Part shown: positions 18,411 to 59,009 of the stretch, in pieces
How the letters are laid out: each line of letters begins with the position of its first letter
How positions within the stretch are numbered: the first letter of the stretch is position 1
Assembly: GCA_963662155.1 (NCBI GenBank)
Contig: OY759270.1
Span: 14,477,008-14,541,007 of the forward strand
Reading direction: 5' to 3'
Length of the DNA stretch: 64,000 nucleotides
Source: Lamellibrachia columna
Lineage: Eukaryota; Annelida; Polychaeta; Sabellida; Siboglinidae
Notes under the pieces: generated by a model
Seen by the model: the letters and a program-made list of their open reading frames with translations, nothing else
Told to the model about the DNA's origin: nothing
Database searches by the model: none
Translations under genes and position numbers: made by a program

Positions 18411-18412
18411 AG

Positions 18413-20735
18413 ATGTCCCCACCCCCCCTAATATACTGGTCTCCTGTCACTGTCATCTGGGTTCTCAGGCGGATTAGACGTCTTTGCATTCAGATAACGG
18501 TTTTGTCACTTTCATTAGTAATTTTACTTGGATTTACGTGGGATTTTACAATGGAGGAGACCACACATGATAGTAGTAGTAGTAGTAGTAGTAGTAGAAA
18601 GAGTGAGGAGAAATGTCCACCTGCTGGTGGAATTAAGATGAAAATTGGTGGCTTCAAGACCGACCACTGTTACCACAAACCATCAGATGCAGCAATCCAA
18701 CAGGAACCCAGTGGGGTTAACAGTGGGGTTTGGTTGCCACGGCTAAGCCAGGATGACTTTGACAGAGTGGTGCAAACCACTCCTTCAGGATTGCTGGCAG
18801 TTTCAGACGCAGAGGGTCGGCCAGGCACGAGCAAAATTCTACGGCCACAGCTTGATCAATGCCCTGACCTAACAGACATCTATCTTCAAGCTGACGAACA
18901 GGCAGATACTCATGCAGTTTCTAAAATGCGTCTACTTAGTGTAGACAAAAGTGCAGCAATGTGGAATGATTGCTTTAAAGAGCATGCTAGCAGAAAGGAC
19001 ACATGTATTCTTCCACACTTCGAAGTACATGAGAAAAAATTTGGTTTGTGTTGGCAACAGTCATTGTCCTGTACAGCCTGTCACTACAAGTCACGTATGT
19101 ACAAACTGTATTCCGAAGTAAACACTGGCAGTCGTGGTCAGAAACCGTGTGCTCCAAATGTAGCCATCCATGTAGGACTACAAGATACAACGATGGGAAA
19201 CACAAAGTTGCGACACATTCTGACAACAACAAACACACCTCCCCCAAGTCGAAGCGGGATGCAAAGGAAATCCAACCGGGTTGCCACAATTACCTCTCAG
19301 TCCACGACTGATGACCTACAGCAGAAGACGGAAAAAACCAGAGAGATAAATGTTCTGCGTGGTCTTCCAGCAAATGTACCAATCAATATAAGCATGGATG
19401 TGAGGTACAACTCAACATCCCTGAAAAAGCTACGGTTGTGGACAGAGTGCAAGTCAAGCAGTGGGAACCACGATTGAATGGCAGACGGACAAGCATGAGA
19501 TTCTAGGTTTTCACATGGAGAACAAGCTATGCAGACTAGGCTCATCACTTCACAATTAAGGTCAAAATGTGTCGTGCCCAGGACATCAAGGATGTACAGC
19601 CACGATTTGTGTGGTCGATCCAATATCAGAATATGAAATAGGCCGTCAAATCGGAGTGAGCTTTGCCCAGCAACAAGTCGTACTAAAATTCGTTGCAACA
19701 TATGGTGATGTGAAAGCATTTCATGGGTTACAGGATGCCATGCCAACAATCGAGGCAGAACGGCAGGCTGACACAACACATCTCGGTCAGACACAGTTCC
19801 GACATATCATGAGAGCATTTTTTTCATCCAGAATGTTCCTGGGAGAGAATGCCATGGTGAGAGCTGAAAACAAGAAAATGTTTGCAAAGGATGTAAGAAC
19901 ACGATGCCAGAAAATCTACACGGATATGCACACACTTTATGCTGGTGATATTATAATGATAACTACTAAGATGCCAAAGATAATCCAAGCAATACTGGAC
20001 TGTTATTCTGGCTCATGTCAGAACTGTCAGTGACATGGAATTGTCTGTCGTGGAGGTAAACGAAACAACTGGTGGAAAAGGTCACAGCATTTGAAGGCAT
20101 GTGGCCTGACTCGACTCAATATGACAGATGAAGACCGAGCAACACTTGAAGGATTAATAGAAATGCGACTTGGAAATTCAGCACTCCAGATGACACGACA
20201 CAGACTTACAACTGACAAGAATGAATCCATTAACCGATCATTCAGTGCTTCATTGCCAAAGAATGTTAAATTCAGTAGAAATGCACATGGACGAGTGAGT
20301 TCAGTGATCGATCGCATAAATTATGGAGCGGGGAATTCAATGCTGTGCAAGTTGGAGAATGTATATTGTCCTATTACGAGAGGTGAACAGGTCGCTAGAG
20401 CTGTCAAGCAAATCCAGCATGAGGTGGAATACCAGAGACAATACAAACGTCGATCATCAGTGCGTCTGCATATCCATCATACCAAGTTAAAGCGCATGCA
20501 GAACTACTTCGATTCAAACAGAAACCGCGGTCCAGAAGATCGATACCTGAAGTGTCAGCTTGAACCAAAACCATCTACTCGTAAAGGGAAGAAAAGGCCA
20601 GCAGCAGTAGTTAAGCCAGTGGTCACAAGGAGTCGCCGCAGAAAGACAACACTGCCAACTGCAAACAGGGAAGATCATCCTTATTCATTGCAATCACGAA
20701 AGTCTGCTGATCACAGTTATGCCAGCAGAAAGTAG
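18413..20735 (+). pseudogene. DDE-type transposase-like gene of an invertebrate DNA transposon, near-intact
   Basis: A long frame runs from 18413 (likely start at the ATG at 18551) to about 19477, continues at 19569-20033 and again at 20091-20735. The N-terminal half has a Ser run from (AGT)n and a Cys-containing block (SLSCTACHYKSRMYKLY). It also has NTPPPSRSGMQRKSNRVA and INISMDVRYN, a plausible first catalytic Asp. The middle reads ENKLCRLGSSL, CPGHQGCTATI and VATYGDVKAF. QADTTHLGQTQFR is a second Asp motif, followed by ILDCYSGSCQNC. The last part has NWWKRSQHLKACGLTRLNM and TTDKNESINRSFSASLPKNV, a plausible catalytic Glu. The tail is basic. I know this arrangement from widespread, poorly named invertebrate transposon proteins. 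A frameshift near 19480-19560 and a stop near 20034 break it. TIRs were not located. A deleted relative sits in the tandem units at 25.7-31.9 kb. Confidence 0.65.
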
Positions 20736-25711: not shown

Positions 25712-28207
25712 GGGCACGGACCACAGTCACTTTTCCCATAGACGACCATTATAACATTCTTGCGCCTACATTGAAAATTTATCCTACAATTTTTTTTTTA
25801 AATTCACAGAAAATGACAGACCCACTAAGACACCTGGTGTGCGAAATTCGTGAAAATGACATACCTCCTTTTCGTACAAATTGCTTCAAAGCATGAGGCC
25901 CGTGCATTTCTGCCATGAAATTCCCCGGTTTCTCAAATATGAGTACATCCTGCCTAACAGCCACTGTGTCATTACGCAACTGGTATACCTACTGACAAAT
26001 GGCATCATTTCAAAGCTTAGATGCTACTGTGCACAAAAACATCACTTCTACTCACTCATACACACAATTTCTGCTCTCACAAATAAACCCTATCTGCACA
26101 ATGAATTTTTTCCTTGGGACTCTTTATGTATGTAATGGCGGATGGATTCTGACTGTGGTCCGTACCCTAATTAATTTCCGACATATCACAAACCGTCACG
26201 AAGGTTATACCAAATCGAAGAAAAACCTTTATCTCGATAAACCACAGAAGGAAATCCACATCGCAATGCAACACATTAATTGATATGTCACCGAGACATG
26301 CCCCCGTATGTGATGGTAAGAATTTCAAGTGGGCTGAGTTGCACATATGCACTTTCGTCATAAAGCCCACAATGCTTGCTGTGCCAGAGATATAGAAAAT
26401 CTTACAAGTGTTTCACAAAATATGGGGTATTTTCATCAATACAACACTAAAATTGTCAACTAATTTTTTATTAAAATATTTTTTTTATTTTTTTTTAATA
26501 TGCACTGTTTTTGGGCAAAAAGCAGGCATTTCTGTGTATTTCACAACATTGATAGGTAATATTGAGTGTTCAAACTACAACGAATTATGGTATGTGTGAA
26601 AACAAGCTATATATCTGACAAGTTTTCATGTGAACATTTGGCATTTCTGACACGGATGACCCAATTTCAAGTCACTGAAGGTGCCAACTGCCTGTCAACG
26701 AGACAGAATGGAATGCTGCCTGTTTGGGGCTTTTGGGTGTCTCCTGTTGCAACTACAGTGACGACAAGCCTACTTTTTGCTCAGATTTCAACTACAGGGG
26801 GTTGTAAATTCTATTCAGAATCTACATTGGGGTATTTTCTCAGCCAATAGCTGTGCAGCATGACAGACAAGTGGTCTACCCCACTAAAATTATGGCCATT
26901 GCTTAAATGTCAGTTGGACAGATTGCTCCCAGATCAGTCAGATAGGAAAAGTTTTTGACTCTGATACAGATATCGGCATGGAGAAGAAAAGTGAAGGTGT
27001 GGCGAAGTTCCAAATAGTCAAAAATGAGAGGAGATGTGGCTTTCAGAAGGGGCACACTGTGCCAGGATATTGTGGTTCTACACATACAGAATAAATTGTG
27101 CTCCTTGGGAGCTTCACTTTGAAGGAGAGGATTTTATGTCACCTGTCCAAGGCATGATAACTGCACAGCAACATTGACATTGGATTGCTATGGAGGTGAC
27201 TGCAAGATATGCAGGTACTCCTCTATAGCCTGCTCAGGTGGGAAAGGAAACTGGTGGAAAAAATCAATGTACCTGCAGACAGGTACTCTCCACTATCTCA
27301 ACATGACCAGTAGAGACAGGATTACACTGAGAAAGATTCTGCAACTAAGATAAGGGGGGAACGCACAAGCGTTAACAAAACTGTGGCTTAACACAAACCG
27401 AAATGATGGCCTGAACAGAGGGTTGAGTGCTTCTCTACCAAAAAATGTGAACTTCAGTCGCAATGTCAAGGGATGTGCCTGTGCAGCCATTGACAGGCTG
27501 AATTATGGAGAGGAGGACTCTCTATTGTGGAAATTGGAGACAAGCAAAGGTTCTATTAGTAAAGGTGGAAGTGTGCCACACACTCCCCCCACATGTATGT
27601 GAGGGGAGTTCAAGAGAGGATTACCTCATAGCCCTGCGAGCACAACGAAGCATGGACACACAGACAGACAGGCAAGCAGCTGAGCATGCAAAAACACACA
27701 AACTGGTGAGTAATGATAAGACTGGCTTAATTCATTCTTTGATTTGTCTCTCACCTGTTCAACTGCACAATTTCTAAATACACTGAGGGTAATGACCATG
27801 ACCAAAACAATGCTGCTCTCTCACACACTGTCTTCTATTGTTGTTTACATGCAGTGGCTCCAGTATCATATGCTGTGGATTAACACACAAGCTGACATTG
27901 CAAATATGGCTACAACTTAGATGTCTAGGAATCTTTGATAAATTATGGTGTAGCATATACATTAATCTATGTACAAGAACTGTCTTCCATTTCCCAGCTG
28001 GAAATTTCACACATATGACACCATACTGGGCTAGCTAGCCTATACAATATGCTTTAAAACACCCAGTCCATAACATGCAACTGTCATTTCTTGACAAGAC
28101 AGTGTTAAACTTGATTCTCCACCTATATTTTCTCACAAAAAATGTCATCCATGCTTGTTTTACCACGATGCGTTGCCTTGGTAACAAGCCAGTCAAAATT
28201 TCATACT
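25712..28207. repeat. Tandem unit 1 (2,496 bp)
   Basis: This is the first full copy. Fixed offsets of 2,496 bp between matching landmarks define the unit. It starts with an intact left TIR and contains a right-TIR-like sequence 456 bp in, at 26150-26167. Small ORFs of 60-105 codons on both strands recur in every copy. They have no motif and are probably not genes. Confidence 0.9.
27080..27600 (+). pseudogene. Internally deleted transposase relic in unit 1
   Basis: The plus strand reads NKLCSLGASL, then RRGFYVTCP and NCTATLTL. It then jumps directly to DCYGGDCKICRYSSIACSGG and NWWKKSMYLQTGTLHYLNMT. Further on come NTNRNDGLNRGLSASLPKNV and RLNYGEEDSLLWKLETSKG. Each block aligns in order with the 18.4-20.7 kb transposase (ENKLCRLGSSL, NCTATI-like, DCYSGSCQNC, NWWKRSQHL, KNESINRSFSASLPKNV, RINYGAGNSMLCKLE). 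The stretch between the CTAT block and the DCY block, which holds the second catalytic Asp, is deleted. A TAA and frame changes are also present. The Glu of KNESINR is Asp-like here (NDGLNR). Confidence 0.7.
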
Positions 28208-30703
28208 GGGCAAGGACCACAGTCACTTTTCCCATAGACGACCATTATAACATTCTTGCGCCTACATTGAAAATTTATCCTACAATTTTTTTTTTAAATT
28301 CACAGAAAATGACAGACCCACTAAGACACCTGGTGTGCGAAATTCGTGAAAATGACATACCTCCTTTTCGCACAAATTGCTTCAAAGCATGAGGCCCGTG
28401 CATTTCTGCCATGAAATTCCCCGGTTTCTCAAATATGAGTACATCCTGCCTAACAGCCACTGTGTCATTATGCAACTGGTATACCTACTGACAAATGGCA
28501 TCATTTCAAAGCTTAGATGCTACTGTGCACAAAAACATCACTTCTACTCACTCATACACACAATTTCTGCTCTCACAAATAAACCCTATCTGCACAATGA
28601 ATTTTTTCCTTGGGACTCTTTATGTATGTAATGGCGGATGGATTCTGACTGTGGTCCGTGCCCTAATTAATTTCCGACATATCACAAACCGTCACGAAGG
28701 TTATACCAAATCGAAGAAAAACCTTTATCTCGATAAACCACAGAAGGAAATCCACATCGCAATGCAACACATTAATTGATATGTCACCGAGGCATGCCCC
28801 CGTATGTGATGGTAAGAATTTCAAGTGGGCTGAGTTGCACATATGCACTTTCGTCATAAAGCCCACAATGCTTGCTGTGCCAGAGATATAGAAAATCTTA
28901 CAAGTGTTTCACAAAATATGGGGTATTTTCATCAATACAACACTAAAATTGTCAACTAATTTTTTATTAAAATATTTTTTTATTTTTTTTTTAATATGCA
29001 CTGTTTTTGGGCAAAAAGCAGGCATTTCTGTGTATTTCACAACATTGATAGGTAATATTGAGTGTTCAAACTACAACGAATTATGGTATGTGTGAAAACA
29101 AGCTATATATCTGACAAGTTTTCATGTGAACATTTGGCATTTCTGACACGGATGACCCAATTTCAAGTCACTGAAGGTGCCAACTGCCTGTCAACGAGAC
29201 AGAATGGAATGCTGCCTGTTTGGGGCTTTTGGGTGTCTCCTGTTGCAACTACAGTGACGACAAGCCTACTTTTTGCTCAGATTTCAACTACAGGGGGTTG
29301 TAAATTCTATTCAGAATCTACATTGGGGTATTTTCTCAGCCAATAGCTGTGCAGCATGACAGACAAGTGGTCTACCCCACTAAAATTATGGCCATTGCTT
29401 AAATGTCAGTTGGACAGATTGCTCCCAGATCAGTCAGATAGGAAAAGTTTTTGACTCTGATACAGATATCGGCATGGAGAAGAAAAGTGAAGGTGTGGCG
29501 AAGTTCCAAATAGTCAAAAATGAGAGGAGATGTGGCTTTCAGAAGGGGCACACTGTGCCAGGATATTGTGGTTCTACACATACAGAATAAATTGTGCTCC
29601 TTGGGAGCTTCACTTTGAAGGAGAGGATTTTATGTCACCTGTCCAAGGCATGATAACTGCACAGCAACATTGACATTGGATTGCTATGGAGGTGACTGCA
29701 AGATATGCAGGTACTCCTCTATAGCCTGCTCAGGTGGGAAAGGAAACTGGTGGAAAAAATCAATGTACCTGCAGACAGGTACTCTCCACTATCTCAACAT
29801 GACCAGTAGAGACAGGATTACACTGAGAAAGATTCTGCAACTAAGATAAGGGGGGAACGCACAAGCGTTAACAAAACTGTGGCTTAACACAAACCGAAAT
29901 GATGGCCTGAACAGAGGGTTGAGTGCTTCTCTACCAAAAAATGTGAACTTCAGTCGCAATGTCAAGGGATGTGCCTGTGCAGCCATTGACAGGCTGAATT
30001 ATGGAGAGGAGGACTCTCTACTGTGGAAATTGGAGACAAGCAAAGGTTCTATTAGTAAAGGTGGAAGTGTGCCACACACTCCCCCCACATGTATGTGAGG
30101 GGAGTTCAAGAGAGGATTACCTCATAGCCCTGCGAGCACAACGAAGCATGGACACACAGACAGACAGGCAAGCAGCTGAGCATGCAAAAACACACAAACT
30201 GGTGAGTAATGATAAGACTGGCTTATTTAATTCTTTGATTTGTCTCTCACCTGTTCAACTGCACAATTTCTAAATACACTGAGGGTAATGACCATGACCA
30301 AAACAATGCTGCTCTCTCACACACTGTCTTCTATTGTTGTTTACATGCAGTGGCTCCAGTATCATATGCTGTGGATTAACACACAAGCTGACATTGCAAA
30401 TATGGCTACAACTTAGATGTCTAGGAATCTTTGATAAATTATGGTGTAGCATATACATTAATCTATGTACAAGAACTGTCTTCCATTTCCCAGCTGGAAA
30501 TTTCACACATATGACACCATACTGGGCTAGCTAGCCTATACAATATGCTTTAAAACACCCAGTCCATAACATGCAACTGTCATTTCTTGACAAGACAGTG
30601 TTAAACTTGATTCTCCACCTATATTTTCTCACAAAAAATGTCATCCATGCTTGTTTTACCACGATGCGTTGCCTTGGTAACAAGCCAGTCAAAATTTCAT
30701 ACT
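28208..30703. repeat. Tandem unit 2 (2,496 bp)
   Basis: The second full copy is nearly identical to unit 1. Its left TIR is altered by one base (GGGCAAGG instead of GGGCACGG), and the same alteration is in unit 3. Its internal right-TIR-like sequence at 28646-28663 is the intact form, whereas unit 1 has GTACCC. Confidence 0.9.
29576..30096 (+). pseudogene. Internally deleted transposase relic in unit 2
   Basis: This is the same relic as at 27080-27600, 2,496 bp downstream and nearly identical. It has the same internal deletion and stops, so the deletion pre-dates the tandem amplification. Confidence 0.7.
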
Positions 30704-31943
30704 GGGCAAGGACCACAGTCACTTTTCCCATAGACGACCATTATAACATTCTTGCGCCTACATTGAAAATTTATCCTACAATTTTTTTTTTAAATTCACA
30801 GAAAATGACAGACCCACTAAGACACCTGGTGTGCGAAATTCGTGAAAATGACATACCTCCTTTTCGCACAAATTGCTTCAAAGCATGAGGCCCGTGCATT
30901 TCTGCCATGAAATTCCCCGGTTTCTCAAATATGAGTACATCCTGCCTAACAGCCACTGTGTCATTATGCAACTGGTATACCTACTGACAAATGGCATCAT
31001 TTCAAAGCTTAGATGCTACTGTGCACAAAAACATCACTTCTACTCACTCATACACACAATTTCTGCTCTCACAAATAAACCCTATCTGCACAATGAATTT
31101 TTTCCTTGGGACTCTTTATGTATGTAATGGCGGATGGATTCTGACTGTGGTCCGTGCCCTAATTAATTTCCGACATATCACAAACCGTCACGAAGGTTAT
31201 ACCAAATCGAAGAAAAACCTTTATCTCGATAAACCACAGAAGGAAATCCACATCGCAATGCAACACATTAATTGATATGTCACCGAGGCATGCCCCCGTA
31301 TGTGATGGTAAGAATTTCAAGTGGGCTGAGTTGCACATATGCACTTTCGTCATAAAGCCCACAATGCTTGCTGTGCCAGAGATATAGAAAATCTTACAAG
31401 TGTTTCACAAAATATGGGGTATTTTCATCAATACAACACTAAAATTGTCAACTAATTTTTTATTAAAATATTTTTTTTTTTTTTTTTTAATATGCACTGT
31501 TTTTGGGCAAAAAGCAGGCATTTCTGTGTATTTCACAACATTGATAGGTAATATTGAGTGTTCAAACTACAACGAATTATGGTATGTGTGAAAACAAGCT
31601 ATATATCTGACAAGTTTTCATGTGAACATTTGGCATTTCTGACACGGATGACCCAATTTCAAGTCACTGAAGGTGCCAACTGCCTGTCAACGAGACAGAA
31701 TGGAATGCTGCCTGTTTGGGGCTTTTGGGTGTCTCCTGTTGCAACTACAGTGACGACAAGCCTACTTTTTGCTCAGATTTCAACTACAGGGGGTTGTAAA
31801 TTCTATTCAGAATCTACATTGGGGTATTTTCTCAGCCAATAGCTGTGCAGCATGACAGACAAGTGGTCTACCCCACTAAAATTATGGCCATTGCTTAAAT
31901 GTCAGTTGGACAGATTGCTCCCAGATCAGTCAGATAGGAAAAT
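30704..31943. repeat. Tandem unit 3, truncated (1,240 bp)
   Basis: The third copy follows the unit up to GATAGGAAAA and then jumps to the true right end of the element. It lacks the transposase relic, which begins about 1,360 bp into the unit. A T-run at about 31471-31489 differs in length from units 1 and 2. Confidence 0.9.
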
Positions 31944-31978
31944 TTTGGATGGATTCTGACTGTGGTCCGTGCCCTGTA

Positions 31979-35345: not shown

Positions 35346-36120
35346 CAGTCAAAATTGCGAGCGTAATTCACAGCAACATGACATCAACACACATGAAGAC
35401 CTCCAGTTGACACATTATTTTATTACATTGTATGTTATTTCCTTACAGCTTATCACATCTATGATCAGAGCTGCCATGTTGTGTCGACGAACATGCGAAA
35501 GATATTGGCAGGATCCAAACACTGAAAAACGTGATCGCGTATAAGTCTCGCCGCTCACACATTTGGGTGCTGCCGATGTATATCCTATCTTTTGGGGAAG
35601 GGATGCAAAGTTGAAGGCCTTCATATTAGCAGATATTTATAACAAACGCGATCACATCTATGGTAAGGTGGAGTTTTATTCGACATAACTGCCAACTTCA
35701 ATAACTGCCATCGTTGGAGGTTCTTTCGGCGTCGTCGTCATCTTCTTCTTTATCCGACGTCAACGGTTTGTCCGATTCATTAACGCTGCATTGCTGCGTT
35801 TCTTGTATCGTTCCGTTCTTAATCCAATGTTTAAGACTGGTGCTATTTTCCTCCCTGTGGCCGCTGATGTTGTTAATGCGTCGTAATCTAGATCTTACTC
35901 TAGGTCTGTCAATTTCAAAGTAATCACATTAGAACAGGTCTGGCACTTATTCTCTCTGACACACGGTCCCGTATATTGCGATCCACGTGATCAGTGACGT
36001 CATGTCCACAGGTCCACCACAAATTACACATTCCGTCAATTCATTTGTACCTGAATACTAGATCCAAACACTGAAAAAGGGTGTTATGTTACTTTAATTT
36101 ATGGTTATGACGCCTTCAGG
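35346..36120. other. No certain gene; an acidic minus-strand frame noted
   Basis: A minus-strand frame near 35935-35700 reads RVRSRLRRINNISGHREE and then an acidic run (SDKEEDDDDAE), with a CVICGG motif in another frame near 36025. No splice sites or family could be confirmed, so this is not called as a gene. Confidence 0.3.
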
Positions 36121-36123
36121 TGG

Positions 36124-37750
36124 CATGGGTAATTTCTGAGATCACTCCTTCGGGTGTGATGGGCCTAGTAGCTTTAATCGTGATTATTAAACCATACAGT
36201 GGCGTTGAGGTCAAGATTTTGGTTCCTATAGTACATAGGGCAGATGTTTTTCACTTTACTACTCTCCTGTGCACCATACGGTGTAAATGGTCGGATTGTT
36301 ATAATGGTCCCTATGGTGTAAAGGGCATGTTTATTTTCATTTGTTCTATTCCGCCATACGGTGTAAATGGTCGGATTGTTATATTGGTCCCTATGGTGTA
36401 AAGGGCTTGTTCATTTTCATTTGTTCTATTCCGCCATACGGTGTAAATGGTCGGATTGTTATATTGGTCCCTATGGTGTAAAGGGCATGTTCATTTTCAT
36501 TTGTTCTATTCCGCCATACGGTGTAAATGGTCGGATTGTTATATTGGTCCCTATGGTGTAAAGGGCATGTTCATTTTCATTTGTTCTATTCCGCCATACG
36601 GTGTAAATGGTCGGATTGTTATATTGGTCCCTATGGTGTAAAGGGCATGTTCATTTTCATTTGTTCTATTCCGCCATACGGTGTAAATGGTCGGATTGTT
36701 ATATTGGTCCCTATGGTGTAAAGGGCATGTTCATTTTCATTTGTTCTATTCCGCCATACGGTGTAAATGGTCGGATTGTTATATTGGTCCCTATGGTTTA
36801 AAGGGCATGTTCATTTTCATTTGTTCTATTCCGCCATACGGTGTAAATGGTCGGATTATTATATTGGTCCCCACGGTGTACAGGGCATGTTCACCATACG
36901 GTGAAAATAGTTGGACTATGAACGTGGTCCCTACATTTTACAGGGCACGTTAATTTTAATTTTCTTATTCCGCCATACGGTGTAAATGAGCGGACTAGGG
37001 GTTTGGCCCTATGGTGTACAGGTCATTTTTAATTTTATTCCGCCATACGGTGTAAATGGTCGGTGTATGATTTTTGGCCCTATGGTGTACAGGACATTTT
37101 TTATTTTTGTATTCCGCCATACGGTGTTAATGGTCGGACTAGAGGAATGGCCCTATGGTGTACAGGGCATTTTTTATTTTATTCCGCCATACGGTGTAAA
37201 TGGTCGGTGTATAATCTTTGGCCCTATGGTGTACAGGGCATTTGTATTTGTCTTATTCCGCCATACGATGTAAATGGTCGGTTTATGATCTTTGGCCCTA
37301 TGGTGTACAGGGCATTTTTATTTTTATTATTCCGCCATACGGTGTAAATTGTCGGTTTATGTTCTTTGGCCCTATGGTGTACAGGGCAGGTTACTTAAAT
37401 TTTTTCTGGTTCCGCCATACGGTGGGTATGGTGGCTGTGATGGTTTTTCCCACAGTGTACAGGGCATGTTAATCATTAATTGTCTTATTCCGCCATACAG
37501 TGTGAATGGTCGGTTTATGCTATCGTTCGAACGCTAGGTAGCGCATGTTAATTTTAATTTCTTGTCCCACCATACATTGTAACTTGTCTGACGATAATAT
37601 GGGTCCCGTGATGTTCATGGCATGGTAATTTTATTATTCCGCCATTTGGGGTAAATGACCGGTTTACACTATTCATCCCTACGGTGTACAGGGCATTGTA
37701 ATTTTCATTTGTCTGATTCCACCATACAGTTGGATTACCGGAGCGGGTAA
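36124..37750. repeat. Hairpin-module array 1
   Basis: About 1.6 kb of modules spaced roughly 37-43 bp apart. Two types alternate: CCAT-ACGGTGTAA-ATGG and CCCT-ATGGTGTAM-AGGG. The central part, 36271-36890, is eight nearly identical 80-bp units, each with one module of each type. The right part, 36890-37750, is older and diverged, yet many second-type modules there have improved stems (GCCCT-ATGGTGTAC-AGGGC). Short ORFs reading YGVNGR..YRA are by-products of the repeat. Confidence 0.9.
36271..36890. repeat. 80-bp homogeneous minisatellite core of array 1
   Basis: Unit starts fall at 36271, 36351, 36431, 36511, 36591, 36671, 36751 and 36831, exactly 80 bp apart. Units differ by single bases, for example CTTG for CATG in one and GTTTAA for GTGTAA in another. 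Such uniformity implies recent amplification or conversion inside the older array. Confidence 0.95.
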
Positions 37751-38164
37751 CGTTGTAGTTTGTGAGTGGATAATGTTGGTCAAGGGTTAACCGTGGTCCC
37801 TAGTTTGTAATGACACAGCGTACATAAGGTTCACATTACTACGATTGGGTGCAGTGTTCAACTTGAACAGTAAATGTTACAGCAACGGAGCAACTTCATC
37901 TTCTCTTAAGGGCGCGTGCATTCGTTGAGAATACTCACAGTTGTGTAGTAATTGGCATTGTCGCTTGCCAGATCGTCTAGCTGCTTACTGATAATACCGC
38001 AGACGATCAGATCGGTATAATAAGCCGTGAACGCATCTTCCAGGTTCGCAAGATTTTATTAACGCAGAACTGTTGATTGTACAACATAGACTGGTTCTCT
38101 ACCGTTGTTCTTGTGTCTCCCATTTAACATTTAAAAGTCTTCAATAAATTTTGTTTTCTAATGG

Positions 38165-38506
38165 TAAGGTAGGTATGGGCCGGCGTGGCCCATCCTTGCC
38201 GATAATTTTGAGTCCAAATTGAACGAGGTGCGTGGTAATTTAGATCGCGCGCACCCGTTGTTTTATGAGTCTATTTCTGGCCTATTTATACCAGAGCTTT
38301 CAGAAGAACCCCGCCTCAGTGGAGGCGCGGTTAACCATTTTAGGAAATCGAGAAAGCCGTTATTGGCCGATGTCCAAATACAATCGTCATCCCCGTACAT
38401 GCTGGAAATGACCGTCGTATGCAAGGTATCGGGTCACCTTCTGAACCCCCCAGGACTGGGAGACCTTCTTGTGTCCTTGGGGACGGTCAGTTGCCAACTA
38501 AACTAG
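38165..38506 (+). CDS. Possible ORF between the two hairpin arrays, no family recognised
   Basis: The frame opens after a TAA at about 38162 and reads RYGPAWPILADNFESKLNEV, then HPLFYESISGLFIPELSEEP and GGAVNHFRKSRKPLLADVQ before a stop at 38504. The first ATG is at 38219. Base composition is less AT-rich than the neighbourhood. It is followed at 38943-39160 by a Pro/Ser/Ala-rich frame (VAPTAPAPVPSTSGQAE). Such a pair could be part of a structural (gag-like) or other element protein, but I see no zinc knuckle or protease motif. Chance cannot be excluded. Confidence 0.3.
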
Positions 38507-39159
38507 TTTCTTATGGCCTGCATTCTAAATCGGGTAAACATTTCTCCCGTTTGACAGTCCAGTTATTATTACAGTCGGGGCGACTCTACCCCTCCCTACT
38601 GTGTATACTAAACAATAAGCAAAGCTGCAAACTGGCCAAAAACTAGCTTGCCTTACATAAGTTGTATCAACCTGGGTTTTCTTTATGCTAACGTTAAATC
38701 ATTGATTAAACATGTCTGCAATGACCGCTATCTCTGTTCTTACAATTTTAGGCTGACCAAACCTTAAAATGAGATGCGCGTGATGCGGGAGTTGTCACGT
38801 GTAGCGCTGCAACTGGTAAGTCCTAAGGGTGGTCACGACGCGGTTGCGTCAGCCTATGTTGATCGCCAGGTGGCGGCATCATCCGTAGTGACCCCCATCG
38901 AGTCATCCGGTCGTCCGGCCAGCTTCTGCCGTTGGTCGCCAGGTGGTGGCACCTACTGCTCCAGCGCCTGTGCCCTCGACGAGTGGACAAGCCGAAATTC
39001 ACTCTGCCTCCAGTGCTCGTCAAGCGGCGACTTCCGTGGCTCCTGAGCCAGTGCCCTTATCGAATCATCAGGATACTGGCATGGTGGATCCTCCTTGGCC
39101 GACAACCGACCGCTTGATGGAGACATCCACTGACCTTCCTGTCCCAGTTTTTTCTATTT

Positions 39160-40470
39160 CATGCGGTGTAAACGAGGAAACTGGATTAAGCCATGCAGTA
39201 AGAATATTGAAAATGTAACTAATCTATGCGGGGGAAGTGGAGCAGTTTTGTCAACCCATGCGGTGAGTAAGCGGATCTAAATTTAGTTAATCCATGCAGT
39301 GATAGGGAGAAGTTTTTGTTGTTTCCATGCGGTGTCACGGGTGTAAATAAAAAGATAACGTTTGCTAAGCCATGTGGTGTAAATGGCACAATTGTATTCC
39401 ATACGTTGAAAATGGAGGGGTTTCTGTATTCCGTGCGGTGAAAACGGAAAGTGACATAAAGAAGTTTTGTTATTTCCATACGGTGTAAATGGAAATTAAC
39501 TCTTGTTAAGCCATGCGTTGTAAATGGCACAATTGTATTACGTGCGGTGTAAACGGAGCAATGTCGGTAGTACGTGCGGTGAAAACGGAAAGTGATATGG
39601 AGACTTTGTTATTTCCATGCGGTGTAAATGGAAATTAACGTTTGGTAAGCCATGCGGTGTAAATGGCACAATTGTATTCCGTGCGGTGGAAACGGAGCAA
39701 TTTCTGTAGTGCAGTGAAAACGGAAAGTGATATGGAAAAGTTCTGTTATTGCCATGCGGTATAAATTGAAATTAACTTTTGGTAAGCCATGCTGTGTAAA
39801 TAACACATTTATATTCCGTACGGTGTAAACGGAGCAGTTTCGATAGTCCGTGCGGTGTACACGGAGATGGTGGGTTAACCCATGCAATAGGAAATTTATT
39901 GAAAATTTCACTAATCCGTGCATTGCAGGCGGAACAGTTTTGTTAACCCAGGCAGCGAGTAAGCGGATGTACATTTGGGTAATACATGCAGTGATATAGA
40001 GACGTTTTGTTATTTCCATGCGGTGTATATGAACGCTAACTTTTGTTAAGCCATGCAACTAAATGACACCAGTGTATTCTGTGCGGTGTAAGCGGAGAAT
40101 TGGTACGGAGAAGGTTTATTTCCATGCGGTGTAAATGGCACAATTGTAGTCCGTGCGGTGAAACGGAGGAGTTTCTATATTCCATGCTGTGTATATGGAA
40201 AATTGGGTGAATCCATGAAGTGGACAAATTACTGAAATTTTACTAATCCATGCAGACGAGGCGGAACAATTTTGTTACCCCTTGCAGGGAGAAAACAGAT
40301 GTAAATATGTTTGTTTTGTTAGGTCCATGCATTGTAATTGGAGTATAAGTTTTATTAAGGCATGCAGTGCAAATGGCACAATTGTAGAACCCTTTATATT
40401 CCGTGCGGCAAATGGAGAAGTTTTTGCATTCCATGTACTATTTAAGCCATATAGTGTAAATGGCACAATT
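39160..40470. repeat. Hairpin-module array 2
   Basis: About 35 modules are spaced about 35-40 bp apart. The core is GCGGTGTAA and the complementary arms change from module to module. Examples are TTTCCAT with ATGGAAA, GCCAT with ATGGC, TCCGT with ACGGA, and TCCGTG with CACGGA. The three arm types recur in a loose order (TTCCAT, GCCAT, TTCCGT), suggesting an older higher-order unit of about 110-120 bp. Modules toward both ends are degraded. The array is related to array 1, which has ACGGTGTAA as its core. Confidence 0.9.
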
Positions 40471-40474
40471 TTCA

Positions 40475-43400
40475 TGATAATATAGGTGACCGTACGTTAA
40501 CGTTTATGGTTTAATGGTAGTTCGTGATATGTAATGACACAGCTGGTCCTGGGTACCACAATTAATAATTATAGATGCTGCCACAAGTGGCAATCAAGCA
40601 GCGACACCGATGGCGCGTTGAGTCAGCAGGGGCTGCAGCAGCTGCATCGACACCACACCTTCAACAATTGGTCAAAAGGCTGGCTAGGTTGCTCCCCATG
40701 GATGGCCTGCTGGAAGCGGCCATAAATCTACACGTATCAGTACTGTCGCTTATATGTTGTAGGTGCATAGTGTGACATTGTCGCCGATACTCTGGAGAGT
40801 GGCATAAATTATAGTTTAATAATTGTAATTGTTGCTGGTACAATCAGTCGACAGCTTAAACTGGTGTCAGTATGTAGTGGTATTATGGTGGTTGCAATTA
40901 AGCACAGTAGTAAGCTGGGTCCGCAATCATTACAAGTAAATGACCAGCGTGTTGTAGGCACACCCATGGCTGGGGGATCGAGTACCCCAGCCTTTCTGTT
41001 TGTACATGTATGTGTATGGTTAATTCACGGCGGAGTGACCCTCACCGATACCATGTGAATTGTATATAAGTCAGTAGTGGTACAGATAGTACTGGTAGTG
41101 GGTAGCTGATAGGCATGATTTACTAATTATGTGTAAACACCTTTTGGGGGCCGGCATGCTTGCTGAGATTATTGGATGTATCTTATTTTGATGGTGTATG
41201 CTTGCCTAATTTCCTGCTCCTTAATTAATAAATCTAAATGTCATTCTTTGGCCTATTTCAATCTACGCTGGACTTGTGTTGTTATTTTGCATAAAAGGTG
41301 TTATGTTTCCAAAAAAACTAGGGCACCAGATGAGCGCAATTCGAGTCATTAAAATTTCTATCCGGGACAGCTCTTTATAATACACTGGAAAGAATTGACA
41401 AATGAATAAATCTTTCATTATGTATGCCGTTGCGGTTTATTTAAACACGGGACGAAATATGTTCAATTGTTCTGAAACAGTTAAGGTAACAGCATATTGA
41501 TATCTGATAATTCCCAATGTCTCATACGTATCAGTCTTCTGGGATCCCATACATATTACACATAAACAAGATAAGACGATTACAAAAGAACGCAGCAAGT
41601 TTGATTGAAAGCAACTATGAAGGCATACTCGGAACCGTAATTAATCTCATATAAGAACACAACTAGTCATCACGTTGAATTATCACACTGTCTTTATTAA
41701 CTTCGAATTTAAAAATGACATGGAAAAACATCTAGCATTTTAATCCAACCTGCACACGCCTGGCTTAAATGCTTCAAGTTTGCTACTACTAGGATGTGTC
41801 TGGTTGTGTGTTGATAATGCAACTGGAGTGGAAACGATCTCTAAGGAAGTGTAGAAAAGATATGGTGGAAACCACAAAACATGTTTTGTGGAATAACTAG
41901 TTTCTTGTCATAACAAGATAGGTAACCAGATTCTTGATTATAACAAGAACAATTATCTGCTGAACATTGAAAAAATATTAGGCAGATTTTATATCGCCAT
42001 CTTATAACCCTATCATCAGCTCATCCTATTATATACATCATTACACGTTGCCTTTCAGTATAAATTATATTCATAGATTATTCAATTGGCTGAATATCTT
42101 TAGCTATCCAGTTATGTCCCTACCTCCCCATGGGGTATGTAAAAATGACGTTGTCTCAAGCCATAAGTTTCTGCATGCTAGCACTAACAAATGCATAGAG
42201 TACAACCATTCGCGAAAGGTCAGGATATTTAATATGCATGCATACATTGGACAAACACGTGGTGCAGTTCATGCAGAAATTACAAAGAAACACGTTAGAA
42301 GGTCCGAATCAACTTTGAACATTTGAAACTGCCGGGTCTATGGGAGCGTAAAAAACACAACTGCACACTTGGAATTCAAAACGCACAATGAAGACCCAAC
42401 TGCCCGTTTTCACTACATAATATAACGGGGACGCTCCACATAATGACCATAACGACGTGTCCACCTTCCCACGCTGTTAACGGTCAAGCAATTCGAAGTG
42501 ATCATTGCGCTACTAGGACCGCCCATCCTCGCGGGGTGTTTGTAATAATTAAACTGAGCTAGCTCAGATGTGGAAGCAGAGAAGCAAGGAATATAATAAT
42601 TTTCATTGCTACAAAAGCAGTTAGCAAGGATTGTCAGAAATGTATACTATTGCCATTATACAAAATGGATTATAATGTGAATTGCATATATTAAAGCTAT
42701 CTGATTTTGTAAAACTAAAAACTCCCAATATAATGTGTGAAACAAACAAAAAGTTGTTACCAAATAATATGCTGTGGTTATTCAACAGTTTATGACACAA
42801 CACGTGAAAACTTAAGACAGTTATTTGCAAGAATGACTCTAAAAGCCAAATGTATATCTGTACAAGGTATACAATTATGAAATAAGCAAATTTGGACATA
42901 TGCAATATAAAATGCGAGGACATGTACTGTCCATGTGAATACATTTATTCAAGTAGTGGTCCCATGATGGTGCGACAGCTACTATGTTATGTAATGTAAT
43001 ATTCTACATTCTTATGGGTTTGATGGGTTTAACATACAAAACTACTATCCCACTGGAGAAAAAATTAGATAACAATGAGAGGAAGCGTGTAACTTGTTAT
43101 GTTCATTACCTTGTTGCACTAACCAACATTGTCTAGGCTGTCAAAGAAGTACCTTTTGAAATACCAGAGACAGCAAAGGAGGCTCAGTTGTAGACCATTC
43201 CGAAGACATGACAATGTTCCTGCTGCACATCATTGTTCACAACAGCAAATATGGGTCGGACTGCAAACGTCAATAATGCAACCGAGCCAAATATGTGTTT
43301 CCGTCATAACAATCAGGCTGCATATCACCATCATTTAAGACGTCAAGCTGAATGATGTGGCAGTCTAATATTTAGTTGGTATCAACCACATTTCCCTTTT

Positions 43401-47389: not shown

Positions 47390-49345
47390 TGGTGAATGAA
47401 TGTATCAGAACCTCTGTTATTGGATAACTATAACTGTTCAATATACCAGTGCTTCTCATTTCAAAGTCTCCTTTACACAAGTTGTGCAACTTTATTTTAA
47501 CATCTGTCTAAAAATGTGCTGTATTATGGGGGATATCTCTTTAGCAGTTTTCTTTAGTATTTTTGCAGGAATGTCGGATGGCCCTGGCGCTTTGTTGGAG
47601 TTTAGAGCTACAAGCTGTTTTATGATGCCGCTCCGATTTCTAGGGTTTGAATTGAGGGAGATGGTGATGGGCCTTTTGTTGGGATAGGAAGTTGTTCATT
47701 TGTAAAAAACTGATTTGAAGAGGTCATCGAGAGCATTTGCTTTGTCATGGTCGGCTGTTTTCAAGTCGTTATTTACTTTTAGTACTGGAATGCCAAGATT
47801 TTTTGTTTTATTTTCTTTTGTCGGATGAAAGACCAAAATTGTTTTGGATTTGTCGTCAAACTTTTTCCCATGTTGTTAATGTAACTGTTATAGGATTTGG
47901 TCACTTCTTTGGTTGATAATTTTCTTAAATTTTCCCAATGTTTTTTTTGGCTTTAGCATGAGTTTTGTCCCTTTTTCTCTGTAGGCTAATAATGCTTCTT
48001 GTGGTTCAGTGTAGGTGTTGTTTAGATTTTGTCATGGGGCTAGCGATGGATTCTCCTATCAGGTTAGTGTAGTGTTTATGAAAGAAGTCCCAATTTGAGT
48101 TTACATCTTGTTTATCTGGTTTTCGAGTAAAGTACTGCTGAGCAAGCTGGGTGCATTTCGCTTCAAGGGATTCCCAGTTTGCAGATCTGTAGTTGTATAC
48201 TTTGTGTGGTGGTTTGTTTTTTCTGAGAATGGCTTCATGATCACTCATGCCAGCCACTGTGTTTATGGTGGAGATAAGGAATGGGTTTGATGTAAGTACT
48301 AGGTCTAATATATTTCCGGAATCTAATCGGTTGGGTTCATTTACTATATTAACTAGTCCAAATTCCACAACTATTTCAATTAGTTTGTTATGTTTCACAG
48401 TTGTTTGTTGGTTTGTTGCACACACATTCTCTCAGTCAATGTCAGGAAGGTTTAGATCTCCAGCTAGAATGACAGATGGGGTATCTTGTAGCTACGGTAT
48501 AGGATGGAGAGAGTTTCATGTAAGGCTTCTAGAGATGTGTAGTCATTTGGAGGTCTGTAGTAGGATGCCAGATAGATATATAGCTTTTTTATGCACAGAG
48601 TGTATTTTTGATCAAATAATTTCACAGGTTGTGTTTAGTTTGTCTTGGGGGCTGCTATAATGTCATTTCGGAGTGCTATAAAAACACCTCCACCGTGGAT
48701 GTTACGATATTTTTGGATTGCTTAAGAATTTGTGGGGAGCACATAGTATGTGGGGATACTTGAGTTGAGTTTGGTTTTAACTAGAAAGATTATGTCAGGG
48801 TTTGTTGAGTTTATTGTTGCCTGCCATAGGGATACTTTGTTAGTGCCCTTGCTGCTGAATGCAGTTTATCAGCAGTTTAGGTTTACTTGTTATCTTTGCT
48901 CGGTCAGGAGTAGACGTATTAGCTGGATTTGGTGCAAATGTAGGGTTCGTATCATCAGAGATATTTGTGTAGTCACTGCTGTCTGGAAGTGACTCAAGGA
49001 CTGAGTTAGGGTTTGGAGTATTAATGTTGCTGGTGAATAGATACACAGAATAGTTTGGCAATCCACAGCAAGAACAGAACCAAAGCACACTACGATATTT
49101 TAATTGTTCTTATGTGGTGTCATTAATTTGGACACATGCAGTATGGTACGAACTGTCACATTGATCACACTGTATGGCATGGTGGTGATCATGTACCTCA
49201 TGGCTGCAGGTGCCACATGGATATTTTGGAGAGGGATCTGGGGTGGGACCAGGGTTTGTGTGAATGTACCCTGCTTGTATTATAAGGCCACACATATATA
49301 ATAGAGATAGGGTATATGGCTTAGTTGGCATCATTTTGTTTTTTC
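47390..49345 (-). mobile_element. CR1-like LINE, 5' half (copy A)
   Basis: The minus strand begins near 49340 with a hydrophobic stretch and HTNPGPTPDPSPKYPCGTC. A PHD-like finger follows (CGTCSHEVHDHHHAIQCDQC, then SSYHTACVQI). Next come the endonuclease start (INSTNPDIIFLVKTKLNS, NIHGGGVFIALRND) and the endonuclease end (PNRLDSGNILDLVLTSNP, GMSDHEAIL). The linker (LGIPVLKVNNDLKTADHDK) leads to the first RT block (SNKAPGPSDIPAKILKK) near 47590. The rest of the polymerase is missing. Stops and frame changes are present in the endonuclease. The order PHD, endonuclease, RT is usual for CR1-like ORFs in invertebrates. Confidence 0.75.
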
Positions 49346-50059
49346 TTTGTGGTTGAGAACGTTGGGAATGGTGGCAGGTTTCTTGTCAGCATGGCTGAGA
49401 ATGTTGTTGTGGAATCCTCATTGTTGGTGGCAATTTGATACAGGTACAGAGGCGAGAGTGGTGTAAAATAAAGTGGTTTTGAATTTTCTTGTGAAAGTAT
49501 GTATTAGTAGATGTTTGCTATAACTTGCCTTTAGAGGGCTAAAGTCACATTAGATCAAATATGTACTAAACTGTTTAAAAGTGCATGTGCACGGTTTGGG
49601 CTAGTGCGAACATAGACAGATAGTCAGTAGGAAATCTAGATGTGTGTTATGTCTGTGGTCCTCGGCTGACTCAGGAACACTGGGTATATGAAAATACAGG
49701 GGTGGCAATAAAGCACCCGAAGAAGGGCCTGTTTCTTAGTACAATATGTGATAAAAACAGGGTAGGATTAGAAATTCTAAGCTAAGTGTATCTAGTTTAT
49801 ATTTATAACTAATACACAGTATATTGAAATTTAAATGCATGCACTATTTTTAGTTGTGTTGGGGATGATTTGGGTTTCGCGAGTTTTAACGACTACAGTT
49901 TACATCCGTCATCTTGATTTGTTCAATGTTAAGCAAGGTAAACGCAGCTGATTGAGTAAATTTGGTTTAGGAACGTGTGATCTCTAACGTTATAACACGA
50001 TTATATTCTGATTTTGACACTGTTGCATATCTGTAAGATTGGGGTGTAAAGAGCCTTTA

Positions 50060-50465
50060 GAAATGTCACGAACCTGTCACTATGAGACAGGATATGAAAA
50101 GACAGACACTAATCTGTCATTATGAGACAGGAGTTGACCAGACAGACACTAATATGTCACTATGAGACAGTAGATGACAAGACAAACACGAACCTGTCAC
50201 TATGAGAAAGGAGATGACATAACAGACATAAACATGTCACTATGAGACAGGAGATGACAAGACAGACATAAATATGTCACCATGAGTCAGAAGATGATAA
50301 TAACACTGTTCCTAAGATGCAATAACTAAAGTAATTTCCTTAAAAAAAAAAATTAATTAGTCACCATGAGACAGGAGATTACAAAATAAACACTACCATG
50401 TCACTATGAGACAGGAGATGACAAGACAGACATTCACCTGTCACTATGAAACAGTAGATGAGAGT
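50060..50465. repeat. About 42-bp minisatellite with hairpin core (copy A)
   Basis: Units of about 42 bp share CTGTCACTATGAGACAGGAG, in which CTGTC and GACAG can pair around ACTATGA. About six units run to 50290. Two or three more follow a 60-bp interruption that holds an A-run. Confidence 0.85.
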
Positions 50466-52855
50466 CATGGGTTAATTTCAATTGTTAATTTAAATAACTC
50501 AATTAATTAAATTTAATTAATTGATTAACAAGAAAAGGTAAAGGCTAAATTAACTTCACAAAACAGGGGTAATTTTATTTTATTTAATTGACAAATTCCA
50601 AATTAACTCTCAATTAAGTGCTTATTTAACAGTAGGTATTACTGTATAGTTCAAACCCACGTTACTCAGGCATTTCCAAAAGGCAGTCACCATTCCAGTG
50701 ATTAGTCTGACAGAGATAAGGTTAAGGTATGTATGAATGGGAGGGAGAATATCTCTCGACATTAATACTGTCTGTACCAACTGGAGTTACCTGGTCATTC
50801 AGGCACATGTGAATTGGAGGGAAGGCCTAGACAATAGAATTTCCTCTTTTAGTGTGGTAAGTTAATGACAAATGGTGGCTTCTGCAAATCTACAAAATAT
50901 TTATCTGGTAACCTGCAGCCAAATGGACCTATGCATTATACTATGTATCTATATATTTTCGGTATGTCCGCAAGCATACATATAACATGCAGAGAAAAGT
51001 AAAATAGCTTCAGTTTGGGTCTTTTTACAGCGCCAATTGGTATCAAAAGCAAGCCAATTCAAGTGATACATGAGAAAATTTAAATACTAGTGTATAAAGG
51101 GGAAACCTAATGAGTTAGCATTAACACATTGCATAAATAACACTTTGATGCATAGAAATTATGTATGTAGTTACCCGGTTTTGTTAATTTGGTGGTGGAA
51201 TACTGGAGGAAACTCCACACTCTGCAAATCCTCAGCCACAAATTTACATTCCTTTCAGAAAAGAACATTAATTTTAACAAGCATCTACAACTTTTAAAAT
51301 GTGATCCAATACCAATTTTTTCTCTGACCCTTCTCCTTCTCTCCCATCGAATGGGGCGTGATAACGTTCCAGATAGAACGTCTGGCTCGCAGTTGTGAAA
51401 ACCCTAGCTTGAACCGTCTTGCTGCCGTTTTGAAGCTTTGGCAATTTGTTTCACCGAACGTTGCCACAGCTCATTCGTTTGTATGAATGAGTATCTGGCT
51501 ATATGCAGTGGTGATTATACGTACGAATGGTCTTCGAGCAGTAACTGCAGCATGACTGAGTGCTTCCCAGAGAAGTCGAGATGGAGTTGGAATGAACAGG
51601 TGTGCTAGGGGTGAAGTGTAAAACACGTTGAACACTGAACGTACACTAACTGATGCGTAGTATTATTTTTTGGTGTAACCATGTTGAGAAAATTGCTGTA
51701 AACAGAACGATTACGTATCCTCAATAGAACAACACGCATGTGTCGATACAATTAGGATACCAGAATAATTGCGACATAGAAATTGCGCTTCTAAGTGAGG
51801 ATTACAACGTCATTCAGGGCGTTGACAGGTGTCAAGGCGTGGTGTGCAATAGATTATGTTATGTAAACAGGACAACGCCGTCCGAGCGCATGGACAATGC
51901 GTGTCGTAGTTCGTTGATTACTTCCGCCAGCACAGATAACAGACCACAATGGTTCATTCCTGTTTACCAGCCAGCATGCGGGGAGTTCTTGCATTTAGCG
52001 TGTCTTATATAGCAATCCATGCGAAGTTGGTGATTCTTCTTCCAAAAATTGGTATACGGTGTACGGCCTACCATGACCGAAGAATGATCAATTGGAGAAA
52101 TATGGAGGAGTGTGCAAGATAGCATTTCGTGAGCTACATCCGTGTTGGAGTGCATGTTATCTGCTTCAACATACGTTGTATATCAATAGCACACGCTGCG
52201 TGCTTCCTGTGGTGTTCTCTGTAAAAGCTGATCTCATCTAGATAGGTAGAAATGCATTGCGTTGACAGCCAGTCGGACGAAATTGGTGAAGAAAGAGATG
52301 ATTCGAGACAGCTACTAACAAAAGGAGCATTATAAACAGGGACTTTGTGACCTACCAGAATGCGGAAGGTTTGTGTATAAACATTATTTGGCTTTGTAGA
52401 TAAATAATATCTATACTACGGAGTACACATATTTGATATGGTTTTAATTCTGATACATATTTTATTCATTCTACAAACGATTGATCATTTCATATGGAGT
52501 TTTGGTTAATGTATTGGGACAGATTACTTATTAGTGACAACTATGTTTTTCTGCTTCTGATGCCACTCATGACTGTGTATTAGTCGCACGAAAATGTTGC
52601 TAGACTGTTGCTGGCAAGGAGACGAGACACTTTCTATGCGTTTTGGCTTATTGTTGGCTAACGTAACAGTTAACAAAGTAACGGCGGTGGGAATTGCTAG
52701 ATGCATAGATAATAAACAGACATACCAGTTATCACAACTGTTCGATGATACTATTGCCAATATAATAAACCTTTTCCACTTGGAGTGTGTTGTATTCCTA
52801 AGACAGGGTTTTGTAGGGTTGTTGATATCAATTACACGGCCAACGTTCTAGTAGA

Positions 52856-52890
52856 CGCCATCTTAGAGTGATAACTTCCGGCGCATGCGC
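52856..52890 (-). promoter_or_regulatory. Housekeeping-type promoter cluster: NRF-1, ETS and YY1/start motifs (copy A)
   Basis: On the minus strand GCGCATGCGC (52881-52890, NRF-1 type) overlaps CCGGAAGT (52874-52881, ETS type). AAGATGGCG (52857-52865) follows, which is both a YY1-type motif and a good-context ATG. The ATG opens only MASTRTLAV before a stop, or it may splice at GTGTAA after codon 8. The tight spacing matches TATA-less animal promoters with a translation-start YY1 element. The downstream gene was not identified. Confidence 0.5.
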
Positions 52891-53834
52891 ATAATTTCAC
52901 CACTAGATCTGCATAATTCAATATCAATAACATAGACTAGTAATATTATTTATGCATGTTATACACTTTGCAGCATTACAACATGAACTATGCCATATAA
53001 GAAACATTCTAATTAACTAAATTGTTTAATTCGTAGTTGTTATATCAGTTAAATGTAAAGTTAACCTGTTTCAAGAGTTCACACCACAAATTCAGCTAAA
53101 TAGGTTTACCTACTATATAAACGGGTTGTCGTGTTGTCATAGGAGGTTACAAGTTCAACATATAGGGATTGTCAGTAGTTTGGCTGGAGAACTACAGGAA
53201 GGTCTGGGGGCCGACAAATCTCTCCCCTGAGAGCTGCTCGATATGTAACCATAAGAGACCCGGTGACTGTGGATTGGTCTCTCCAGCGACCGATAGGAGG
53301 TGCAACCAAATAGCAGATAATGCTAAGTGTCACTCACGTCATTGGACTCTTATTTTTTAAACAAAAGTACATCGATCATTACATATTCAGATTCAGGTTA
53401 TTATTCTCGATTCGCATTAGTTGGTCAAACGGCATCAGTTTTATTGTCATCGTAGCAAACGTCTGTCAATCCGTAATCAATTACATGTAAATTATTACGT
53501 TGATGTCCTTCCTTGCATTTTAGTAACTCAATGCTTTCATTATATCACTCTACGTCACTCCCTAAACAAAAAGGCTATATAATATTAGTGTTTTATGGCA
53601 CTCCAGCAAACATGCAAATTTGTTCTCATCGAAGAACAGCCAGGCGACACTGTTAAGCTAATGCTTTCCACACGTTTTGATTTTACTGTGCTTCTCTACA
53701 TGCAATCTAAAGTCTGACACATAAGGAAACGTCTTGCAACATATTGTGCGCACCTAATCGATTCAAATAGACATGCAAAATTTACCCCACCAATAATAAC
53801 TAACTCGGATTTACTTGCATTTAACTTTAATGTG

Positions 53835-58296: not shown

Positions 58297-59009
58297 TTTG
58301 TGGTTGAGAACGTTGGGAATGGTGGCAGGTTTCTTGTCAGCATGGCTGAGAATGTTGTTGTGGAATCCTCATTGTTGGTGGCAATTTGATACAGGTACAG
58401 AGGCGAGAGTGGTGTAAAATAAAGTGGTTTTGAATTTTCTTGTGAAAGTATGTATTAGTAGATGTTTGCTATAACTTGCCTTTAGAGGGCTAAAGTCACA
58501 TTAGATCAAATATGTACTAAACTGTTTAAAAGTGCATGTGCACGGTTTGGGCTAGTGCGAACATAGACAGATAGTCAGTAGGAAATCTAGATGTGTGTTA
58601 TGTCTGTGGTCCTCGGCTGACTCAGGAACTCTGGGTATATGAAAATACAGGGGTGGCAATAAAGCACCCGAAGAAGGGCCTGTTTCTTAGTACAATATGT
58701 GATAAAAACAGGGTAGGATTATAAATTCTAAGCTAAATGTATCTAGTTTATATTTATAACTAATGCACAGTATATTGAAATTTAAATACATGCACTATTT
58801 TTAGTTGTGTTGGGGATGATTTGGGTTTCGCGAGTTTTAACGACTACAGTTTACATCCGTCATCTTGATTTGTTCAATGTTAAGCAAGGTAAACGCAGCT
58901 GATTGAGTAAATTTGGTTTAGGAACGTGTGATCTCTAACGTTATAACACGATTATATTCTGATTTTGACACTGTTGCATATCTGTAAGATTGGGGTGTAA
59001 AGAGTCTTT

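Follow-up and report, generated by a model that had tools for sequence, protein, structure and literature searches.

Arrays of short hairpin modules lie in a 64,000-nucleotide stretch of the genome of the annelid Lamellibrachia columna (GenBank assembly GCA_963662155.1, contig OY759270.1, positions 14,477,008 to 14,541,007 of the forward strand; hereafter the window), and we have very little doubt that they are a non-coding module of a Ngaro-like tyrosine-recombinase (YR) retrotransposon. The identification is based on split direct repeats of 295 and 267 nt, on RVT_1 and Phage_integrase domains in a coding relative, locus L125, and on a remnant of the Gag-like frame in the window (70 of 84 residues identical). 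An earlier sequence-only reading of the window had described modules with a constant loop and variable stems, unlike an ordinary minisatellite and, to that reader's knowledge, unlike any described eukaryotic nuclear family. The constant-loop, variable-stem pattern is confirmed, and since the modules sit inside a dispersed element with defined ends, we rejected both a stand-alone minisatellite and a new nuclear repeat. Rather than standing alone, the supposed family thus belongs to a Ngaro-like retrotransposon and to the non-coding derivative of that element; the element is of a known kind, and the array is its new part.

The coding relative was reached through an SGNH-like fragment of the non-coding element, which as a query gave 124 matches among the 150 scored out of 221 candidates; four of these matches have a common 210-residue open frame. 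L125 (C7:31154600-31162500, minus strand) carries, in order, an SGNH-like frame (210 aa), an array of the first type found in the window (array 1), a Gag-like frame (445 aa), reverse transcriptase (RT) and YR frames, and then repeat blocks B and A. Its RT frame of 610 aa matches RVT_1 at 2.7e-13 in Pfam, and its YR frame of 346 aa matches Phage_integrase at 1.3e-6, with 28.7 bits against a cut-off of 27.1. Locus L124 has the SGNH-like frame and array as in L125 and is then interrupted; its SGNH-like frame scores 24.7 bits with Lipase_GDSL_2, under the curated cut-off of 32.9. No Pfam match to a DIRS methyltransferase was found in the L124 SGNH frame or in three L125 frames at E<=0.1, a search of limited sensitivity. 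No relatives of the RT were found in viral_contigs. Two RT relatives among the 120 listed of 1479 proteins, P0028 and P0046, are named as proteins of the Escarpia laminata bacterial endosymbiont, and these are probably host tubeworm DNA in a bacterial bin.

According to PMC9210276, PMC8547959 and PMC4157794, Ngaro-like elements are defined by split direct repeats in the order A1...B1-A2-B2. A complete non-coding copy at C1:24997846-25005361 has exactly this arrangement, with A1 identical to A2 at 295/295 positions and B1 to B2 at 267/267. Copies have a 5' block A that starts near TGAATTTATGTGACAGC and a 3' block B that ends in GCATAAA, and B runs directly into A in nine of the eleven loci compared, the exceptions being L116 (the L078 copy) and L075. 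Head-to-tail tandem copies or insertion of the long interspersed nuclear element type had been considered for these B-A junctions, and split direct repeats replaced both explanations.

The window copy is a member of a young non-coding derivative that keeps the A and B repeats and array 1. The exact form CCATRYGGTGTAAATGG has 1159 forward and 1112 reverse matches (2271) in the 880-Mb genome, the reversed control has 0, and among the matches listed an ACGG array is followed 1.1-1.7 kb on by a GCGG array, on either strand. A 629-nt middle segment gave 431 first-look candidates, and all 40 of the copies scored are 99-100% identical; the 3' segment gave 1285 candidates, of which 40 were scored. The derivative is without coding frames yet retains arrays. 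Its second array takes the place expected for the remainder of Gag, for RT/RNase H and for most of YR, and in L078 the array-2 stretch occupies the place held in L125 by those same coding parts. Positions 39650-40057 of the window, within array 2, are 68% identical to the leader of a diverged coding family (F3, locus L133; 421 columns, E 7e-25), and the derivative therefore looks chimeric, as if recombined from parts of F3 and of F1, the family of L125. The anatomy of the window copy is as follows (positions are those of the window).

36080..36090, no strand: left copy of an 11-bp flanking repeat, GGTGTTATGTT, an exact 11-mer common to both flanks.
36092..41296, plus strand: the whole non-coding Ngaro-like element copy, 5'-truncated and ending in GCATAAA(A); similarity to L082 begins at 36092, and the 3' end is as in L074, L078, L080 and L082.
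36274..37690, plus strand: array 1 (F1 type), with a pair of hairpins in every 70-80 bp, TCCGCCAT-ACGGTGTAA-ATGGTCGGA and GCCCT-ATGGTGTAC-AGGGC.
37691..37900, plus strand: leader following array 1, 90-98% identical in other copies and matching coding L125 to about 37882.
37901..38768, no strand: 868-bp insertion, foreign to the element and absent from the compared copies.
38895..39146, plus strand: remnant of the Gag-like frame, 70/84 residues identical to residues 124-207 of the L125 Gag.
39160..40465, plus strand: array 2 (F3 type), spacing about 30-45 bp, arms TTTCCAT/ATGGAAA, GCCAT/ATGGC and TCCGT/ACGGA around GCGGTGTAA.
40504..40967, plus strand: 3' non-coding region, 89-94% identical to L074, L078, L080 and L082.
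41029..41296, plus strand: repeat block B, assigned as B2 with B1-A2 deleted.
41297..41307, no strand: right copy of the 11-bp flanking repeat, matching the left flank.

The Gag remnant is contained in the open frame 38892-39218, and RT and YR frames are absent from the window copy. Positions 37901-38768 are read as an insertion because 37900 and 38769 are adjacent in six matched loci (L074, L078, L081, L082, L084 and L085), and block B is assigned as B2 because of its neighbour, 40967-41028. The insertion contains an open frame of 112 aa (38168-38506) with no Pfam match and, as seen by eye, a long hairpin near 38160-38202; that frame was rejected as a gene of the element because it falls within the insertion. 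Within the 36124-40470 span of the sequence-only reading there are two arrays, at about 36274-37690 and 39160-40465, with a non-modular stretch between them that includes the insertion. The window copy and L082 are both 5'-truncated and stop exactly at the end of B, and their flanks share 11 and 16 bp respectively (in L082 at about 1425-1440 and 7611-7626); no flanking repeat was seen by eye at L078. To our knowledge YR elements make no target-site duplication, and the shared flanks of these two truncated copies, which resemble the products of target-primed reverse transcription, are unexpected for such an element.

The number of modules varies with the counting rule. A scan of 36124-40470 for the core RYGGTGTAM gives 36 exact matches, 51 with at most one mismatch and 86 with at most two; 64 places in 36001-40600 match at least 11 of 15 core letters, and likeness to six module types gives 65 modules in 36001-41400, so that an earlier count of about seventy was fair if generous. 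Every one of the 36 exact cores lies on the plus strand, and the minus strand of the entire window has none. The arms pair beyond chance, as had been claimed: in the 36 modules picked by the 9-nt core alone, 150 of the 180 positions in the 5-nt arms are paired, whereas re-dealing the right arms 5000 times gave 124.8 on average and never more than 137. The complementarity survives collapse to 16 distinct arm pairs (64/80 paired, 50.0 expected, maximum 61 when right arms were re-dealt). In 38 modules (36 distinct) drawn from the 51, with repeats of the same module excluded, the covariation score is 0.344 against 0.150 in shuffles (standard deviation 0.025), a value that 0 of 500 shuffles reached, and slid partners score at most 0.131. 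In these modules neither the pairs with two-sided change (4; 210/500 shuffles as high) nor the further pair types (12; 446/500 as high) exceed shuffles. The main seat of this covariation is the second pair (A-U 17, C-G 9, G-C 7) together with the fifth (U-A 10, G-C 8, G-U 4, and others). The modules reduce to about six types and decayed copies of these.

The earlier reading would have failed had there been no covariation beyond these arrays, and it did not: in diverged families, arrays with different arms or loops occupy the corresponding place. The sequence downstream of the SGNH match was read in eight divergent loci, and an array was present in five of them (L126, L127, L129, L130 and L133); L128 and L131 had neither an array nor a recognisable Gag start, and L132 retains about one module. 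An array between the SGNH-like and Gag-like frames was thus seen in three coding families, F1 (L125), F2 and F3. F2 comprises L126, L127, L129 and L130, whose SGNH-like frames are 58, 63, 54 and 56% identical over about 50 residues; its array repeats a 42-bp unit 8.8-11.8 times, the unit holding the hairpin CATGC-AAAATTGCGGAG-GCATG, and the Gag frame after the array begins MPPIRRSQRQ. In F3 (L133; SGNH identity 43% across about 50 residues), modules of the kind TTCCGT-GCAGTGTAA-ATGGAC and TTCCGT-GTGGTGTAA-ACGGAG precede the Gag start MPPIRQSARQ, and one pair position in the eight clear modules of this family is G-C in one, G.U in four and A-U in three. The F3 leader aligns with those of F1 (L125) and F2 (L126) at the Gag start only (blastn, E<=1e-3), and F1 and F3 leaders both contain GTGTA hairpins with differing arms. 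A GGNG loop is common in the derivative and F2.

Arrays upstream of Gag in three families, together with two arrays in a derivative that cannot be translated, argue for a cis-acting role, at the level of RNA or DNA, rather than one in translation. By analogy with known packaging signals, we tentatively suggest, as a possibility short of an even chance, that the array acts as a multi-site RNA signal to which the Gag-like protein binds for ribonucleoprotein assembly or packaging. In the full-length RNA every module would form a short stem with an exposed G-rich loop, and the array would offer dozens of equivalent sites for the element's own ribonucleoprotein protein. The simplest binder would be the Gag-like protein with its two cysteine motifs; by eye, C-X7-C-X4-C-X3-H and C-X2-C-X3-H-X4-C can be made out in F1 and, in another frame of that copy, in F2. 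Binding would mark the genomic RNA for assembly, packaging or dimerisation. As a stem need only pair, the arms could change in concert and the loop stay constant inside a family; a derivative without genes would profit from retained and added sites, because it would compete for the proteins of coding copies.

Several observations weigh against this RNA signal. The folding energy of four array stretches is not below that of shuffles (z 0.44, 0.03, -0.82 and -0.63), and the modules of an array are able to pair with each other. Among 502 modules of the six types, from the window and seven fetched loci, within-type cells are unchanged in 2177 cases, broken by one-sided change in 204 and changed on one side to G-U in 79, and two-sided changes keep the pair in 9 and break it in 3; stems decay, and compensation is not seen. 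Because these within-type changes mostly break pairs, the covariation is old and lies between a few ancestral module types, while individual copies decay; the compensatory stem change put forward earlier thus stands between module types and not within them. Distinct G.U and A.C events in stems number 12 and 9 in the window, 24 and 16 in other non-coding copies, 3 and 3 in coding F1, and 5 and 4 in F3, and with no clear excess of wobble pairs RNA is not singled out. The loop word changes between families: of the 11 F3 core matches listed, 4 have GGTG, the first hairpin carries GTTG in five of seven units of coding F1, and a GGNG packaging word constant across all families, which we tested as a candidate, was not found. 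Pfam finds no family in the L125 Gag frame. The GGAG loop of HIV-1 is reported to be replaceable with packaging not significantly affected (PMC7599994). Our caution about the RNA signal reflects the shuffle-like folding, the lack of clear G.U excess, the inconstancy of GGNG and the Gag frame without a Pfam family. Rfam at gathering score has no match in the window and none inside the arrays of L078, L081, L082 and L084.

The main rival is neutral minisatellite growth, in which slippage enlarges a quasi-palindromic unit located between two frames, and template switching, by copying changes from arm to arm, makes the arms covary with no function involved; the derivative would then have its arrays merely through descent and recombination. 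We consider this possible if doubtful. In its favour, array 1 opens with eight nearly identical units of 80 bp, other tandem arrays are abundant in the genome, and compensation within module types, as noted above, is not seen. The module at 40126 is chimeric, with a slot-1 left arm and a slot-2 right arm, and therefore shows recombination at the core. On the other hand, three families with differing arrays have paired modules at the same place, and F1 and F3 have a loop word in common where their spacers are unalignable. Arms are also more alike than spacers in unit comparisons (0.73-1.0 against 0.56-0.69 in F1; 0.95-1.0 for the core arms against 0.77 in F2), although the outer CC-arm of F2 scores just 0.78 and, as units were cut with the left arm as anchor, left-arm conservation is inflated, both of which count against the RNA signal.

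Two further alternatives appear unlikely. In one, the array controls Gag translation or splicing by shaping the leader, whether as an intron element or as one for internal entry or re-initiation; F1, F2 and F3 all have it immediately upstream of Gag, and a splice-acceptor-like TT(A/T)CAG-A-ATG is seen by eye at the Gag start in all three (L125 reverse strand 2316-2330, L126 973-987, L133 reverse strand about 692-706), so that the Gag message could have an intron made up of the SGNH frame and the array, but the derivative, without an intact Gag, still carries two arrays. In the other, equally improbable, each module is a palindromic site for a DNA-binding protein of host or element, acting in transcription, insulation or recombination: the modules, which are short imperfect palindromes at regular spacing, lie on one strand, and without a clear G.U excess DNA pairing accounts for the arms as well as RNA does, but in such sites it is usually the arms that are conserved and the middle that is free, the reverse of the modules, whose middle is constant inside a family and whose arms vary, and the likely recombinase site, the B-A junction GCATAAA-TGAA-TTTATG, is unlike the modules. 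Of the three binders suggested earlier, we lean towards the RNA-binding protein; no result of the analysis points to the other two, a nuclease or a recombinase acting at the modules.

A bolder extension of the RNA signal, to which we give rather less credence than to the signal itself, is that arrays upstream of Gag have their arms and loop word renewed between families, and that derivatives join the arrays of two families and so parasitise the proteins of multiple partners. If true, one derivative RNA would be acceptable to the protein of more than one partner.

In its A1-[open reading frames]-B1A2B2 order, RT, tyrosine recombinase and putative SGNH-like frame, and in that no methyltransferase was found, the element is like Ngaro-like retrotransposons of the DIRS order. 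It differs from the amphibian Ngaro elements of PMC9210276, in which SGNH follows YR, in having its SGNH-like frame on the 5' side of Gag; a further difference from described Ngaro-like elements is the hairpin array that separates these two frames, and the words "hairpin" and "tandem repeat" occur 0 times in PMC9210276. No description of hairpin arrays in Ngaro-like elements was found in the literature covered, which leaves out Repbase and most subscription papers, and a literature search on the motif letters listed one unrelated paper. The motif pattern matched once per stretch in 17 viral_contigs and 46 genome_contigs stretches, matches that we take as chance, since plain letter odds predict about 120 in 257 billion bases. 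Another likeness is to the retroviral Psi signal, in which the zinc knuckles of HIV-1 nucleocapsid bind G bases in a Psi-hairpin loop (PMC7599994): both have G-bearing hairpin loops beside gag in an RNA that serves as genome. They differ in that Psi has a few hairpins and the array dozens of tandem copies, in that the loop word of the array varies by family, and in that binding here is putative.

The derivative also has a parallel in rice, where Dasheng is reportedly a non-autonomous retrotransposon with RIRE2 as its coding partner. In both cases the coding region is lost, repeats are retained and young copies are many; the tubeworm derivative differs in being of tyrosine-recombinase type, in having two arrays of different family types and in its added tRNA-like segment. 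We know of no description of RNA marking by tyrosine-recombinase retrotransposons, or of its exploitation by copies without genes. A positionally conserved array beside Gag, in coding families and a derivative within one genome, offers a concrete pair of RNA and protein, and a constant-loop, variable-stem pattern spotted by eye in raw sequence can reveal the cis-acting part of a mobile element.

The tRNA-like segment was detected by Rfam in the non-coding element just upstream of array 1, at 39.6-45.9 bits (gathering score 29) and with a 39-nt intron-like insert (L078 2117-2228, L082 1621-1732, L081 4114-4225 on the minus strand, L084 1651-1762). Its anticodon is TAT by eye (Ile), it is located in the broken SGNH frame, and it may act as an RNA polymerase III promoter; the window copy is truncated past its position. 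ARAGORN, with bacterial settings, reports no tRNA in six loci, although Rfam detects one. In the 3' region of L078, at about 7080-7260, there is a second hairpin-like set with a common middle (CTCTGACAGCGGCGGAG, CCCTGACAGCGGCGGGG and CTCTGCCAGTAGCGGAG), and this middle recurs in block A.

Elsewhere in the window there are near-identical duplications, at 25712-31946 (99.7% over 3.7 kb) and at 47638-53799 and 56589-63851 (96.9-99.5% over 3.5-3.7 kb), the second pair containing 40-bp minisatellites. Mutator-like transposase domains (PF20700) lie at 12645-13292 on the minus strand and 18377-20033 on the plus strand. Finally, G000 C1 has an inverted duplication with its halves 3 Mb apart (about 15.624-15.642 Mb and 18.656-18.674 Mb), which includes array elements and is 99.6-99.8% identical across the stretches compared.

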